Below, in pieces: positions 1,491 to 15,585 of a stretch of 21,636 bases of DNA; position 1 is the stretch's first letter, and every line of letters starts with the position of its first letter. This DNA is from a virus: IMG/VR virus record IMGVR_UViG_3300025647_000324, positions 1-21,636 of that record; one strand, 5' to 3'. The position numbers and the translations under genes are program-made. The notes below the pieces were generated by a model. The model did no database searches. It was not told where the DNA came from and saw nothing but the letters and a program-made list of their open reading frames with translations.

Positions 1491-2691
1491 TAATATTTTC
1501 AATAGGGCTTCAAATAAAGAAGACCTAGAGGAAAAGCTAAATCCAGCACAACCGTATTATGACCATAAGACGGAACCCTCTCGCGAGCCTCATTTTTCTT
1601 ATGAAAGAGCTTATGAAGAATTAGAAGTTGTAAATAGAGCCGTTAATATTATTGTAGACGATTGTGCAGAGATTCGTACTAAAGTGGGTTTACAGCATAA
1701 AGGCATTAGTGTAGCAAAAGGTGTTAAACGCTCTAGAGTAGACTTATTATTAAACTACGAGCCTAACCCTTTCCAAGACATCAACTCATTTAAACGTAAT
1801 CTAATTATAGATTACTTAATTGATGGTAACATATTTATATACTTTGATGGCGTACATTTGTATCACCTGCCTGCCAGTAAAATGACTATTCATGCAAGTG
1901 ATACCACTTACGTCGAGTACTACTCGTTTAATGGTAAAATAAACTATTCTCCTAGCGAGATTATTCATGTGAAAGAAAACTCTTTCTATTCTATCTATAG
2001 AGGAGTTCCTAGGCTAAGCCCTGCTCTGCGTACTATGCAACTGATTACAAGTATGCGTAAGTTTCAAGATAACTTTTTCAAGAATGGAGCTGTTCCAGGA
2101 CTTGTACTAAAATCACCTAATACTTTGTCTGAGAAAATTAAAGACCGTATGTTAATGTCTTGGCAGGCTCGTTACAAGCCAGATGCGGGGGGACGCCGCC
2201 CCCTAATTTTAGACGGTGGCATTGAGGTAGACTCTATTTCAAATGTGAACTTTAAAGAACTTGACTTTCAAAATGCGATTGCAGACTGCGAGAAGATTAT
2301 TCTAAAAGCTCTCGGAGTGCCTCCAATCATGTTAGACTCTGGAAATAATGCGAACATTCGCCCAAATATGCGTATGTATTATCTGGAAACAGTACTTCCT
2401 ATTGTAAGAAAGATGAACTTTGCCTTTGAAAGATTTTTTGGATTTGAACTAAACGAAGACGTTAGTGATATTCCTGCACTACAACCAGAGCTACGAGATG
2501 CAGCTGCCTACTATACTTCATTAGTAAATGGAGGTATTATTACTCCACAAGAAGCAAGAGATGCTTTAGGTTTTGAAACTCCTGTAGAGGGCACTCAAGA
2601 AATAAGAGTACCTGCAAATATAGCAGGCTCAGCAGCCGACCCAAGCGTCGGTGGCGCGCCAGTAACATCAGGAGATGATAATAATGTCTAA
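1477..2691 (+). CDS. Portal protein
   Basis: Forms the dodecameric ring at one capsid vertex through which DNA is pumped and to which the tail attaches. The 404-residue length, the position immediately before the protease/capsid gene, and characteristic segments (NPFQDINSFKRNLIIDYLI, the IIHVKE...YRGVPRLSPAL stretch, and EKIILKALGVPPIML) match the HK97-type phage portal family. The ATG overlaps the end of the HNH gene by 14 nt and is preceded by a purine-rich AGAGAGAGA Shine-Dalgarno-like run. The C-terminal tail (GSAADPSVGGAP) is low-complexity, as in many portals. Intact. Confidence 0.93.
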   Translation: MAWYDNIFNRASNKEDLEEKLNPAQPYYDHKTEPSREPHFSYERAYEELEVVNRAVNIIVDDCAEIRTKVGLQHKGISVAKGVKRSRVDLLLNYEPNPFQDINSFKRNLIIDYLIDGNIFIYFDGVHLYHLPASKMTIHASDTTYVEYYSFNGKINYSPSEIIHVKENSFYSIYRGVPRLSPALRTMQLITSMRKFQDNFFKNGAVPGLVLKSPNTLSEKIKDRMLMSWQARYKPDAGGRRPLILDGGIEVDSISNVNFKELDFQNAIADCEKIILKALGVPPIMLDSGNNANIRPNMRMYYLETVLPIVRKMNFAFERFFGFELNEDVSDIPALQPELRDAAAYYTSLVNGGIITPQEARDALGFETPVEGTQEIRVPANIAGSAADPSVGGAPVTSGDDNNV

Positions 2692-3010
2692 CGTAAAACA
2701 ACGAAAAGTAGCCTTAGCTAATTTAGCCATGTACTTTTGTGAAAAGAATAAAATACTTACTCAACAAGAATATATTGACTCAGAAGATAAGCCTATACCT
2801 TTTTCGGGCATTCGTAGAGTTTTCAGAGCATATTCTAGAATGCTAGTAATGTTGCATACTGAACAGCCGGAGCTGCTGTCTATGATTGAGAGTAAAAAAG
2901 AGTCGCTGGTTAAAGTTGTGCCAGAGCCTCCCAAAGCACCAAAGCCAGTTGTTAGGGCAGCGGTCCGGCCTGCTATTAAACCAGCAGTTAGAGAAGAGAA
3001 AGATGAATAA
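2684..3010 (+). CDS. Small hypothetical protein between portal and protease
   Basis: A 108-residue protein I do not recognise. The start at 2684 (MSNVKQRK) is chosen over the ATG at 2675 because AGGAG at 2670-2674 is 9 nt from it but touches the upstream one. It overlaps the portal stop by 8 nt, and its own end overlaps the protease ATG (3003) by 8 nt, so it is translationally coupled on both sides. The first ~75 residues look helical and compact; the C-terminal third is a Pro/Lys/Arg/Val-rich tail (VPEPPKAPKP, then RAAVRPAIKPAVREE) likely unstructured. The position would suit a head-assembly accessory factor, but nothing in the sequence proves that. Confidence 0.8.
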   Translation: MSNVKQRKVALANLAMYFCEKNKILTQQEYIDSEDKPIPFSGIRRVFRAYSRMLVMLHTEQPELLSMIESKKESLVKVVPEPPKAPKPVVRAAVRPAIKPAVREEKDE

Positions 3011-4979
3011 AATCTTTAGTCTTACTTCTACTTTTAAAGCTCTTGCAAATGAGGACGGTTCCGTTATCATTCGAGGCATGGCAAGCACCGCAGATTTTGA
3101 CCGCGCTGGTGATTCCATCTCAGCAGAAGCTTGGCAGAAAGGTGGATTGAGAAATTTTGAAAAGAATCCTATAATTCTTTTTAATCATGACTATGACCGT
3201 CCTATTGGGCGAGCCACAGGCATGAAAGCAGGCCCCAACGGCCTCGAACTTGAATGCAAAATTAGCAAGAATGCCCCAGGCAATATTGCTGAGCTTGTGA
3301 AAGACGGTGTTCTTGGAGCCTTTTCTGTTGGTTTCCGAGTCAAGGATGCTGATTATATTAAGGAAACTGATGGATTAATGATTAAGGACGCTGAGTTGTT
3401 TGAGGTATCGGTTGTTTCCGTGCCCTGTAATCAATCAGCTACTTTTTCTCTGGCGAAGTCCTTTGACTCTTCTGAAGAGTACGAAGCCTTCAAGAAAACT
3501 TTCACTAATCGTGTAGATCTAGCCGGTCAGTCTCTGGCTAAGGACGAAGTCAATACTTCTAGCATAGCTAGTGACCACACACCGAAAAGCGCGGAAATAT
3601 CCGCAACAAAGGAGATCAAAATGGATAATTTGTCCAATATCGACTTGGAAGCTTTTGCTAAAAAAGTAGCAGATGAAACTGCTGCTAAAATCGCAATGAA
3701 GCAAGCCGAGCAAAAAGCAGTTGAAAAAGCAGAGCACGAAGCTAAAGCAGCTCAAGTAGTAGCTTTGGAAACCCAAAAAACCACCATTCAAAATGGTATT
3801 CAATCAGGCGTCGAGAAATTGATGGCTGACGTTCAAGAGCAAATGTCTGCAAAAGACGCAAAGCTGGACGAAGTAATTGCTCGTTTCTCTAAAGAGCTGG
3901 AAGACAAGTCTGTTGAAATCGCTCAAATGCGTGACAGCAAGCGTGTTTTCTCTGACCGTGGTCAGGCAAAAGGCGACGTTTCTAAGTGGGGCCAAGACTT
4001 CATGTATGCGTCTCTGCTGGGTACTATGACTGGCAAAGGCATGAACACTTCTTATGCCAACCGCGTTATGGAAAAAGCTGGTATCGACTATGCTACCAAT
4101 GCTGGCGATATTGACCAGGAAGTTTCTCGTCAAATCGAAAAAGAAGTAACTCTTATGCTTCGTACCGCTGGTCTGTTCCGCGAAATCCAAGTAAACGGTG
4201 CAGCTACTGTACTGCCAATCCAGCCTGATGTTGAGCCTGCTGTTTTCCAAACTGGCGCTGCTGCTGCTGGTAACCTGGAAAACCGTGATGCTTCAAACAA
4301 CACCTACCGTCCATCACAGGTAATCTTGAATGCTTACCGTTTGATTAGCCAAACTTTCATGGACAACAACGTTGATGAAGAAGTTCTCGTCAATCTGATG
4401 CCTATGCTGGTTGAGTCTGTTGCCCGTGCTCACGCTCGTGCAGTTGATAATGCTATCATCAATGGTAGTGGTTCTATCACTGGTTTGTCTGGCTATGCTA
4501 CTTCTGGTGGTACTGTTCTGGATGTTTCATCTGCAACTAAGCTTACTGCTGCTAACCTGCTGTCTCTTCGTAGGAGCATGGGTAAATACGGTATTAGCCC
4601 ATCTGACGTTGCTTACGTTGTATCACAGGCTCGCTACTTTGAGCTGATTGAAGATGCAGGTTTTGCTGATATCACTGATGTAGGTTCTGATGTTGCTACC
4701 AAGATTACTGGTGCTATCGGTGCCGTCTACGGTTCACCCGTAGTCGTTTCTGACAGCTTCCTCGCCGAAGGCGATGGTAGTACTCCAGTAGCTGCTGCCT
4801 ATGCAGTTAACCTGCGTAACTACGCTATCCCACGTCTTCGTGGTGTAACAGTAGAGACAGATTACGAAGTTGGTAATCAGCGTCGTGTTATCGTCGCTAC
4901 TCAATCTTTGGGCTTTGAAGAGCTTGTTGCTGACGCAGCAGGTAACTACTCTGCCATGAAGATTGTTACCCAGGCTTAA
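3003..4979 (+). CDS. Fused prohead protease / major capsid protein
   Basis: A 658-residue protein joining two normally separate functions. Residues ~1-165 form an HK97-type (peptidase U35/S78 family) prohead protease: H62 in FNHDYDRPIG, S108 in GVLGAFSVGF, and the acidic segment ELFEVSVVSVPCN at 131-143. Residues ~210-330 are an Ala/Glu/Lys-rich helical region like a capsid delta/scaffold domain, and residues ~340-658 are an HK97-fold major capsid protein (N-arm region from VFSDRGQ, P-loop-rich core, C-terminal RVIVATQSLGF). The start at 3003 is preferred over an in-frame ATG at 2886 because GAGAAGAGAAAG precedes it and the upstream extension lies wholly inside another gene. Overlap with the previous gene is 8 nt. 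No stop or frameshift separates the halves. An internal start at 3621 is annotated separately. Confidence 0.9.
   Translation: MNKIFSLTSTFKALANEDGSVIIRGMASTADFDRAGDSISAEAWQKGGLRNFEKNPIILFNHDYDRPIGRATGMKAGPNGLELECKISKNAPGNIAELVKDGVLGAFSVGFRVKDADYIKETDGLMIKDAELFEVSVVSVPCNQSATFSLAKSFDSSEEYEAFKKTFTNRVDLAGQSLAKDEVNTSSIASDHTPKSAEISATKEIKMDNLSNIDLEAFAKKVADETAAKIAMKQAEQKAVEKAEHEAKAAQVVALETQKTTIQNGIQSGVEKLMADVQEQMSAKDAKLDEVIARFSKELEDKSVEIAQMRDSKRVFSDRGQAKGDVSKWGQDFMYASLLGTMTGKGMNTSYANRVMEKAGIDYATNAGDIDQEVSRQIEKEVTLMLRTAGLFREIQVNGAATVLPIQPDVEPAVFQTGAAAAGNLENRDASNNTYRPSQVILNAYRLISQTFMDNNVDEEVLVNLMPMLVESVARAHARAVDNAIINGSGSITGLSGYATSGGTVLDVSSATKLTAANLLSLRRSMGKYGISPSDVAYVVSQARYFELIEDAGFADITDVGSDVATKITGAIGAVYGSPVVVSDSFLAEGDGSTPVAAAYAVNLRNYAIPRLRGVTVETDYEVGNQRRVIVATQSLGFEELVADAAGNYSAMKIVTQA
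3608..3623 (+). promoter_or_regulatory. Internal Shine-Dalgarno and in-frame ATG for capsid-only product
   Basis: AAAGGAG at 3608-3614 is followed by six bases and ATG at 3621-3623, among the strongest ribosome binding sites in the window. The ATG is in frame with the fusion gene (codon 207 of it), exactly at the boundary between the protease and the helical delta region. A small hairpin (GCGGA/TCCGC, 3591-3604) ends four bases before it. Confidence 0.8.
3621..4979 (+). CDS. Major capsid protein (nested product, internal start)
   Basis: The same reading frame as the fusion gene, begun at the internal ATG (MDNLSNIDLEAF), gives a 452-residue protein: a ~120-residue Ala/Glu/Lys-rich, coiled-coil-like N-terminal region followed by the HK97-fold shell domain. 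That length and layout is what a free HK97-type capsid precursor with its delta domain looks like. Hundreds of copies are needed per virion against few of the protease, so separate initiation makes sense. The codon choice supports high expression: of 21 Arg codons here 20 are CGT or CGC and one is AGG, unlike neighbouring genes rich in AGA. That this product is made, and that the delta region is cleaved in maturation, are inferences. Confidence 0.75.
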   Translation: MDNLSNIDLEAFAKKVADETAAKIAMKQAEQKAVEKAEHEAKAAQVVALETQKTTIQNGIQSGVEKLMADVQEQMSAKDAKLDEVIARFSKELEDKSVEIAQMRDSKRVFSDRGQAKGDVSKWGQDFMYASLLGTMTGKGMNTSYANRVMEKAGIDYATNAGDIDQEVSRQIEKEVTLMLRTAGLFREIQVNGAATVLPIQPDVEPAVFQTGAAAAGNLENRDASNNTYRPSQVILNAYRLISQTFMDNNVDEEVLVNLMPMLVESVARAHARAVDNAIINGSGSITGLSGYATSGGTVLDVSSATKLTAANLLSLRRSMGKYGISPSDVAYVVSQARYFELIEDAGFADITDVGSDVATKITGAIGAVYGSPVVVSDSFLAEGDGSTPVAAAYAVNLRNYAIPRLRGVTVETDYEVGNQRRVIVATQSLGFEELVADAAGNYSAMKIVTQA

Positions 4980-4993
4980 ACAGCTAGAAACAA

Positions 4994-5019
4994 GGGGGAG
5001 CTTGCTCCCCTAAGTTTTT
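4994..5019 (+). terminator. Intrinsic terminator after capsid gene
   Basis: A GC-rich hairpin, GGGGAG (4995-5000) with CTCCCC (5005-5010) around the tetraloop CTTG, is followed after four bases by TTTTT (5015-5019). It begins 15 nt after the capsid stop codon. The short T run and four-base gap suggest partial termination. No promoter is seen between it and the next gene, so downstream genes would depend on read-through. Confidence 0.75.
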
Positions 5020-5034
5020 ACTAATGGACTTACT

Positions 5035-5625
5035 ATGTCAGATTTTATAACATTAGAGGAATACAAGCAATCTCAAGGCATCGTATCTACAAAAGAAGAT
5101 ATTCGCCTAGGGCTTTTAATTCCCTCTGTGAGTCAATTAATAAAAACTTATTGTGGCAATAGTATAATCGACTATTACACAACTAATAAGATTGAAACAT
5201 TGAATATTAACTGGGATACTCATATAGTACAGCTAACCGAGAGTCCTGTTAATACTATAGTTAGTGTGGAAGAGCGCGACAGTTATGATGGAGCCTACAG
5301 AGTCCTTACAACTGGTGCTTTCCAATACTATTTTGACCAGAACACTGATAGTGTGCTACGGACTACTGGAGGTATTAATTATGCAAACTGGGCAAAGGGT
5401 CCAGGAGCTGTGCGAGTTACTTATACGGCTGGATATGCTACTTGTCCAAGCGACCTTAAACTAGCCGTTATAGACACGGTAACTTATTATCTTAAAGATG
5501 AGCACAAGGAACGGCGCACACTACAAGGTGCCACAGTACAGAACGCTGCAAGCACTACTCAAGCTAACAATGTTGCATTCCCTGACCACATTAAGCGAGT
5601 CTTAGACTTGTATAAAAACTTTTAA
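5035..5625 (+). CDS. Head-tail connector (gp6-like adaptor)
   Basis: A 196-residue protein of the HK97 gp6 / phiE125 gp8 type of head-tail connector, which binds under the portal and starts the neck. Family-like features are the N-terminal helical part (ITLEEYKQSQG, then IRLGLLIPSVSQLIKTYCG), the central beta region (VNTIVSVEERDSYDGAY; VRVTYTAGYA) and the helical C-terminus (DLKLAVIDTVTYYLKDEHKE). Position directly after the capsid gene is the expected one. The Shine-Dalgarno is weak, and the gene lies 15 nt downstream of the terminator T run, both consistent with low expression. Assignment is by pattern and position. Confidence 0.82.
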   Translation: MSDFITLEEYKQSQGIVSTKEDIRLGLLIPSVSQLIKTYCGNSIIDYYTTNKIETLNINWDTHIVQLTESPVNTIVSVEERDSYDGAYRVLTTGAFQYYFDQNTDSVLRTTGGINYANWAKGPGAVRVTYTAGYATCPSDLKLAVIDTVTYYLKDEHKERRTLQGATVQNAASTTQANNVAFPDHIKRVLDLYKNF

Positions 5626-13800: not shown

Positions 13801-14897
13801 GTAATATAATTGTAACGGACTTACAGAGTCCATCAATAGAATATGCACTAGTAGAACTATTTGAGTTAACTCTTTCGGATAGCGTTACTTTATTTTTTCA
13901 TGCTGGAGTAGAGTCAGACCTAGGTAATGTAAAATTTCACCCTATTGACGAGCCTGAAAAAAATACTGAAGCAGATGCGAATGAGTATATCGCATTACCG
14001 ATTGAAATGAGCGGTATTGCTAGTGCTTCCGATGGTGCCTCTAATCGACCCACTTTAAGTGTAGCTAACGTAACTCAATTATTCCGTAGTTCTTTAAACG
14101 ATAATAATTTTTCTTTTGAAGATGTTATAGGAAGAAAAATTACTCGAAGAACTACTTTTAGTAATTATTTAGTTGGAGGAGTGGATGAAGATACTCCGAC
14201 AGAATTTCCTTTATCAAAGTATGTTCTTGATAGAATTAGCTCAGAAAATCAAGTCATGGTTACTTTTGAACTTGCAGCTCCTTTTGACCTATCTGGAATA
14301 AAGCTGCCTAATAGAACTGTAATAGGAAAATATTGTTCCTGGATTTATCAAGGTAGAAGAAGTACCCCTAGCCGGGGTGGATGCAGCTGGTCTTTAAATA
14401 GTTCAATAAGCTATGATGGGGTGACTTATGATGCATTTTTTGATAGAGACGACCACCCTCTTGTAAGCCAAACTACTTTCAACTCAGTAGCTACTGCTTG
14501 GGTTGCAGGAACTTACACTAGAGATACTTATGTGACTTATAGTTCCAGAAATTGGAGGTGCATTACAGATAATAATGAGTCTCCTTTAGGAAGCGATTTC
14601 TGGCAGCAAGTATTTACGTGGACAGTATGGGACTCTGTTACTAGTTATACAGTACCTACCCATGGTAGGTACGTAAAACATAACAACCATATATGGAAAT
14701 CTATTAGAGGCAGTTTGAACGCAGAGCCTGAACCCTCGTCAGTATATTGGAGTAGAGTAGACTACTGTGGAAAAACTCTAGAGTCGTGTAAGTGTAGATA
14801 CCAGTTTGTTCCTATTAATGGGCTGCCTTCTGTGACTAAAGAAACTAATAAAGTATTACCTTTTGGAGCGTTCCCCGGCAGTGCTAAATTTAAGTAA
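13797..14897 (+). CDS. Minor tail protein (gpL-like, iron-sulfur) with inserted sugar-binding-like module
   Basis: A 366-residue tail-tip protein of the lambda gpL family, which binds an iron-sulfur cluster through four cysteines. The cysteines expected are present: C180 (GKYCSW), C196 (RGGCSW), C324 (VDYCGK) and C331 (ESCKC, with C333 beside it); the C-terminal PFGAFPGSAKF is also typical. Lambda gpL is about 230 residues. The extra length lies at residues ~233-320 between the second and third cysteines and contains two aromatic repeats (YTRDTYVTYSSRNW...FWQQV and GRYVKHNNHIW...YWSRV) resembling carbohydrate-binding modules of the CBM5/12 type. Starts at ATGA overlap with the M-like gene. 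The sugar-binding role is inferred from pattern only. Confidence 0.88.
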   Translation: MSNIIVTDLQSPSIEYALVELFELTLSDSVTLFFHAGVESDLGNVKFHPIDEPEKNTEADANEYIALPIEMSGIASASDGASNRPTLSVANVTQLFRSSLNDNNFSFEDVIGRKITRRTTFSNYLVGGVDEDTPTEFPLSKYVLDRISSENQVMVTFELAAPFDLSGIKLPNRTVIGKYCSWIYQGRRSTPSRGGCSWSLNSSISYDGVTYDAFFDRDDHPLVSQTTFNSVATAWVAGTYTRDTYVTYSSRNWRCITDNNESPLGSDFWQQVFTWTVWDSVTSYTVPTHGRYVKHNNHIWKSIRGSLNAEPEPSSVYWSRVDYCGKTLESCKCRYQFVPINGLPSVTKETNKVLPFGAFPGSAKFK

Positions 14898-15585
14898 TTG
14901 TTTAAATAAGATATTAGACCATTTTGAATCTGAGTACCCCCGAGAGGGTTGTGGTGTACTTGCAGTGAAAAAAGGAAAACTTGAGTGGCATCCTTGTACA
15001 AATGTAGCAAAGGACTCTGACGATTTTATTATAAAATCCTCTGAATATTTAAAGATAAGAAGAACTTCAGATATTGTAGCTATAGTACATAGTCACCCAG
15101 ACGCGACTTCGGAGCCATCTTCATGTGACATAGCTAATTGCAATGCTGTAGGATTACCTTACTATATTTTTAGTTACCCAGAAATGGAATTAACCGTAGT
15201 AGAGCCTACTATTAATACGGTCGCTTTATTAGGTAGACCCTATAAGTTTGGAATTTCGGATTGCTTTGAAGCTATGAGAGATTACTATACCCAAGAAGGG
15301 CTAGAACTACCACGAAGAGCTTTATATGAAGATGATTGGTGGCTAAAGGGGCTCGATTATTTTACAGAAGAACATATAAATACCTGGGGGTTTAATAAAG
15401 TAGTAGAGCCTAAGAAAAATGACCTTTTAATATTTGCTGTAGGTAGCAAGATTGGAAACCACTGTGGTGTTTATATTGGAAATGACGTATTCTTTCATCA
15501 TGCAACGCAAAGGCTTTCTTGTAAAGAAAATTTATACCCATTTTGGGTCAAGCACTTATTAGGTACATATAGATATGAAGCGTAA
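14881..15585 (+). CDS. Tail tip peptidase-like protein (gpK-like, JAMM + NlpC/P60)
   Basis: A 234-residue protein of the lambda gpK type with two domains. The first is a JAB/MPN metallopeptidase-like domain: E22 (REGCGVL), H70 and H72 (VHSHPD) and D83 (PSSCD) make up a full zinc site. The second is NlpC/P60-like, with C128 (GISDCFEAM) and H194 (NHCGVYIG) as catalytic Cys and His. Such proteins act in tail tip assembly and may cut peptidoglycan on entry. The start is uncertain: the GTG at 14881 overlaps the L-like gene by 17 nt and has GGAG at 14865-14868; an in-frame TTG at 14863 has no ribosome binding site. Both domains look active. Confidence 0.9.
   Translation: MLNLSNCLNKILDHFESEYPREGCGVLAVKKGKLEWHPCTNVAKDSDDFIIKSSEYLKIRRTSDIVAIVHSHPDATSEPSSCDIANCNAVGLPYYIFSYPEMELTVVEPTINTVALLGRPYKFGISDCFEAMRDYYTQEGLELPRRALYEDDWWLKGLDYFTEEHINTWGFNKVVEPKKNDLLIFAVGSKIGNHCGVYIGNDVFFHHATQRLSCKENLYPFWVKHLLGTYRYEA

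Follow-up and report, generated by a model that had tools for sequence, protein, structure and literature searches.

A conserved putative internal start for the shell protein within the protease-capsid fusion gene of a group of uncultured phages

The window, meaning the whole stretch of DNA that was analysed, is a separate virus record of 21,636 bases. Its head genes are found in the usual order: a terminase gene (from position 3), an HNH-like ORF, the portal gene, a small ORF, a gene fusing a protease to a capsid protein, and then genes for head-tail connectors and tail proteins. The HNH-like ORF (1125-1490), located between the terminase and portal genes, encodes 121 amino acids containing HNH-like Cys/His motifs and gives weak DUF matches only in Pfam. 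The 453-amino-acid protein encoded by 5626-6987 matches p143, the tail completion protein of T5, only towards the C terminus (376-418), so that a long N-terminal part lies outside the match. A two-domain tail protein (JAB and NlpC/P60) is encoded at 14863-15585; the TTG listed as its start lies in an overlap with the gene before it.

The protease-capsid fusion gene (3003-4979), which like the features described within and next to it is on the + strand, encodes 658 amino acids. The original prediction that protease and capsid share one uninterrupted frame was borne out; the ORF contains zero internal stops and displays both domains of the protease-capsid fusion class. In Pfam, Peptidase_S78 (PF04586) matches residues 22-152 with 53.3 bits (cut-off 21) and Phage_capsid matches residues 414-638 with 30.9 bits (cut-off 24.2). 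By its PF04586 match the N-terminal part is a prohead protease of the S78 (HK97) type, and this domain extends from residue 1 to about 156 (3003-3470). His62 and Ser108, the two protease residues singled out beforehand, are both invariant across 47 diverse fused relatives and are likely to be the active-site residues. An AlphaFold2 model of the fusion, of moderate confidence (mean pLDDT 67), displays a beta-rich protease at residues 14-140 and disorder at 159-215; long helices begin at residue 215, and the HK97 fold at about 363. The segment following the protease (3471-3620) is a linker that is predicted to be disordered (pLDDT below 50 at residues 159-215), and insertions and deletions in relatives change its length by whole codons.

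The rest of the frame consists of a helical scaffold domain of the delta type (3621-4082, residues 207 to about 360) and the mature capsid part (4083-4976, residues about 361-658). In profile searches the capsid part matches the solved T5 capsid 5tjt with an E-value of 6e-70 and T5-type capsids with E-values of 2e-78 to 6e-80, while the best Foldseek matches among solved structures are the capsids of DT57C and T5 (E 4e-20). Judged by sequence profile and predicted fold, it is an HK97-fold major capsid protein of the T5 type. In T5 the N-terminal scaffold domain of the capsid protein pb8 is removed through cleavage by the protease pb11 (PMC5292684). Since the mature T5 chain in 5tjt aligns from profile position 361, the scaffold domain would comprise approximately residues 207-360, near the size of that in T5. 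The predicted helical domain, of about 154 residues, thus sits where a protease-removed N-terminal scaffold is expected, and it may be cleaved off in the same manner.

It had been proposed that an internal start is located exactly at the border between the two proteins. The motif AAAGGAG is indeed found at 3608-3614, and the in-frame ATG at 3621-3623 opens a nested capsid precursor of 452 amino acids (3621-4979). Residue 207, where this product begins, is the domain border in the AlphaFold2 model, at the end of the linker and eight residues before the scaffold helix. The predicted pairing of this Shine-Dalgarno (SD) site is -8.7 kcal/mol, unmatched by any of the 17 other in-frame ATGs scored in the gene, while the start of the fusion itself at 3003 has a predicted pairing of -2.9 kcal/mol.

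The window belongs to a large, mostly marine group of uncultured phages carrying the fusion. The set compared here consists of 80 viral contigs from an initial search and further contigs, together 204 entries with some contigs fetched twice, and includes two contigs out of genome bins, whose labels, Parcubacteria and Gammaproteobacteria, apply to the bins only. The entries reduce to 80 representatives at below 90% identity, 17 at below 70% and four at below 50%. A chimera or sequencing artefact was rejected as the source of the fusion; the same fusion is carried by many independent contigs. Frameshifts early in the protease of relative L066 and in a poly-A run within the capsid part of L193 are probable sequence errors. 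Some distant relatives (L181:854-3937, L185:916-4035, L183, L179, L188 and L206) contain 150-400 in-frame residues ahead of the protease, so even more may be fused onto this gene; in L181 and L185 the extra residues give a weak match to the TUDOR domain.

When the relatives were checked for loss of the internal site, an in-frame ATG was found to be retained at the join in every fused relative examined. ATG 3621 is invariant in 68 distinct close relatives. Codon -3 is GAG in 68/68 of these, while elsewhere GAG makes up 31% of the Glu codons. Codon -3 is preceded in the close clade by CAG, AAG or TTG, encoding Q, K or L but always with a final G, and in distant branches with the same spacing by ACG, ATG or AAG (T, M or K). 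GGAG is thus kept in spite of amino acid changes, as the codon preceding GAG ends in G. The linker of the relatives otherwise changes freely, but only whole codons are inserted or deleted and the frame stays open, which indicates that full-length translation is maintained as well. Scanning the whole collection for CARGAGATCAARATGGAYAA gave 113 places in newly fetched contigs, all of them capsid starts: 109 are fusion joins, three are cut off upstream, and one, in relative L289, follows an interrupted linker. In this relative (1-260) the linker contains an in-frame TAG stop while the internal start is intact, which is either an error in the sequence or a naturally split variant.

Strong SD sites are concentrated at the join. 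There, 78 of the 80 representatives below 90% identity reach a pairing of -5 kcal/mol or better, compared to 8.6% of 1,240 other in-frame ATGs, as do 16 of the 17 below 70% identity, compared to 4.8%. L180 has a weak SD at the join (-3.5 kcal/mol), L180/L177 being the sole deep branch of this kind; L183 falls outside the span scored for SD pairing and has an SD and an ATG a few codons downstream. Tested against synonymous recoding, the SD of a single gene is rarely significant (p about 0.1), while the combined test across 17 representatives yields p = 5e-5 when these related sequences are treated as independent. The accessibility of the SD is modestly raised (0.58 vs. 0.44). On both start signal and conservation, the site thus resembles that of a nested head gene, where an in-frame internal start yields the C-terminal product alone.

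Immediately 5' of the SD is an RNA hairpin, GCGGA-AATA-TCCGC (3591-3604), whose 3' arm ends 16 nucleotides before the internal ATG. It surfaced in an RNAalifold analysis without prior prompting, with 93.6% paired cells in the alignment. Compensatory changes were found in 21 cells compared to 4.6 in shuffles, none of 500 shuffles reaching 21, and pairing falls to 28-37% when the partner is slid by one column. The stems differ widely among relatives (GCGGA/TCCGC, GAACTGA/TCAGTTC, GCGAC/GTCGC and GGAC/GTCC). In a separate position-restricted test the hairpin was present in 92.5% of the 80 representatives, compared to 37-39% of synonymous shuffles and 32-33% at other positions, and in 16/16 representatives below 70% identity. 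Tests of position and covariation were used because the local folding energy alone is only weakly above that of recoded sequence (combined p 0.004). A larger RNA fold around the start was marginal (p 0.08) and was rejected, as were the long-range pairs from RNAalifold, which are mostly invariant and hence uninformative. No Rfam family matched within 2600-5100.

Synonymous variation along the gene dips into a trough that is deepest at codons -40 to +11 relative to ATG 3621, and 19 of the 20 lowest-variation windows are found at codons -42 to +16, a span that holds 9% of the windows. Among the lowest-variation windows of the gene is a block upstream of the internal start (3507-3542), which is part of the trough and is accounted for neither by the hairpin nor by overall folding. 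Its sequence, GTAGATCTAGCCGGTCAGTCTCTGGCTAAG, shows hardly any synonymous change within the close clade, and the L178 branch has a partly similar block, CTAGGTGGTCAG. At the level of sequence, the site, its SD, the adjacent covarying hairpin and the synonymous trough all agree with the earlier suggestion of initiation at 3621 and indicate that it is under selection.

The closest cultured relatives are T5 and related phages of the Demerecviridae, which have the same gene order. The T5 protease pb11 and capsid protein pb8, the latter with a cleaved N-terminal scaffold domain, are homologous to the two parts of the fusion (PMC5292684). In T5-like phages, however, these are two genes with stop codons between them, while the fused phages have a single frame, and the capsid proteins are about 23-24% identical to the capsid part of the fusion. 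Sequence comparison places the beginning of the T5-like capsid genes at the position homologous to ATG 3621. T5-like phages are the only relatives with separate genes that were seen. They are also the best among the listed matches in a phage collection, where the two genes are annotated separately; these matches revealed no cultured phage belonging to the fused clade. In a tree of both domains, which is unrooted, a branch with 100/100 support splits the fused from the T5-like rows. With neither separate genes nor a place in the T5-like clade, the fused phages are, as judged from these sequences, outside the Demerecviridae.

The start of the fusion itself has a different context. The stop of an upstream ORF encoding 111 amino acids (2675-3010) overlaps it by eight nucleotides, and such overlap or abutment is also found in most close relatives. 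This suggests that translation of the fusion is coupled to that of the upstream ORF, and the weak SD together with the overlap would fit translation at a low, coupled level. At the other end, 15 nucleotides after the capsid stop, a pattern scan gave a strong terminator-like hairpin with a T run (4994-5011), which could set the end of the capsid mRNA.

The internal start at 3621 is very probably a genuine start that is in use. The fused frame, the conserved start, the hairpin and the homology with separate genes of the T5 type, all seen by sequence comparison, are in all likelihood best explained by a model in which one frame gives two products and the longer one delivers the protease. Ribosomes would initiate at ATG 3621 by means of the strong SD, with the hairpin just upstream, and make the 452-residue capsid precursor, equipped with a scaffold domain of its own, as the bulk shell subunit. 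Fewer ribosomes would start at ATG 3003, with its weak SD and overlap with the upstream stop, probably by coupling, and read the whole frame into a minority of 658-residue protease-linker-capsid protein. That the fusion is the minor product is a guess from the SD strengths. The capsid half of the fusion would co-assemble with the free capsid protein and in this way place the protease inside the prohead, and cleavage at the border between scaffold and capsid would then give an identical mature subunit from both forms. A difficulty for the model is that ribosomes arriving from upstream must unwind the hairpin and cross the internal site.

The open frame might also mean that the 658-residue fusion is the sole product, with a protease on every subunit, and that the internal start, left over from two formerly separate genes, goes unused. 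As the T5-like capsid starts share its place, the internal site may be inherited. A relic would nevertheless decay, yet the SD, the ATG and the covarying hairpin persist below 50% identity amid a changing linker, and the synonymous constraint is centred on the internal site. One protease per subunit would also need room inside the shell, and this explanation is therefore considered very improbable.

Two other explanations accept a free capsid protein. Capsid could be made from 3621 while the protease is set free, for instance by immediate self-cleavage in the linker, so that none is carried into the shell by the fusion. The linker is predicted to be disordered and is variable, and the stop in L289 may mean that the fusion is dispensable there, unless it is a sequencing error. 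A free protease has no need of the fused frame, however, which the whole clade keeps, and early cleavage would forfeit the obvious benefit of a fusion; this alternative is judged unlikely. Capsid could alternatively be translated from a transcript of its own, produced by an internal promoter or by RNA processing in the linker, comparable to herpesvirus UL26.5. The hairpin and the synonymously constrained block upstream of the SD could then be processing signals, and the window has one sigma-70-like match at 3147-3175. Such matches occur at chance level, though (two found vs. 3.5 expected), and that at 3147-3175, the best one, lacks conservation in relatives and was rejected as a promoter. Separate mRNAs, which we find distinctly unlikely, would in any case leave the free capsid protein beginning at 3621.

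Protease-capsid fusions have been reported in actinobacteriophages, for Arthrobacter clusters AM, AU and AN, Microbacterium cluster EE and Rhodococcus phage RRH1 (PMC5513430; PMC9671004). They resemble the fusion of the window in having an S78-type protease and a capsid protein in one open frame. The capsid profile of the window, however, gives no match to their capsid part (E above 0.2), and their fusion is for this reason probably of independent origin. Behind the protease, 11 of the 13 actinobacteriophage fusions examined have an SD-led ATG or GTG, the starts being picked after inspection: ten are ATGs at -5 or better, compared to 11% of the other ATGs in these genes, and one is a GTG at -10.3. 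Emperor has no internal start and that of Yavru is weak. Such starts in front of non-homologous capsids support the nested-start reading, but are only suggestive because they were chosen after inspection and not in a blind test. The available portions of the actinobacteriophage papers describe the fusion and do not mention a second product (PMC5513430; PMC9671004). A protease domain fused to an HK97-type capsid protein has also been reported for the thaumarchaeal proviruses NCAV2-Pro1 and Nvie-Pro1, which differ from the window in being archaeal, and the accessible part of that report does not describe an internal start (PMC6563490).

Both protease-capsid fusions and nested head genes are thus already known. 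In lambda C/Nu3 the long product bears the protease, and its C-terminal part is also present in a shorter in-frame product. The analogy drawn with this pair in the original prediction fits in its logic but not in the type of product, since Nu3 is a scaffold and the nested product here is an entire capsid precursor that itself includes a scaffold domain. Herpesvirus UL26/UL26.5 likewise pairs a protease-bearing long product with a shorter in-frame product sharing its C-terminal part (PMC4498786). As an analogy it appears equally good, and there too the nested product is a scaffold, while in the window it has the HK97 capsid fold. To our knowledge the UL26 proteins have no homology to the fusion. 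No internal start in a protease-capsid fusion was found described in the open-licence literature, and as far as this literature was searched, an internal start of the shell protein that is conserved and accompanied by RNA structure seems to be new for such a fusion. Going further, the segment from the block at 3507 through the hairpin and the SD could act within the coding linker as a regulatory RNA element governing how much fusion is made relative to free capsid, perhaps through feedback by head proteins, and internal starts of this kind could be a general rule of protease-capsid fusions that has arisen independently; this combined proposal is possible but doubtful.

Annotations treat a protease-capsid fusion as a single protein, leaving unexplained how a shell tolerates a protease on each of its hundreds of subunits; the T5 shell has 775 (PMC5292684). 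If used as the two-product model proposes, the conserved internal start would resolve this problem, and subunits with and without the protease tag should occur in a definite ratio. Abundant shell protein and a small amount of protease already attached to it would come from a single gene. In addition, a putatively regulatory RNA structure is kept within a coding linker across a large group of uncultured phages. The comparison further suggests that many of the fusion annotations in cultured actinobacteriophages are worth re-reading.
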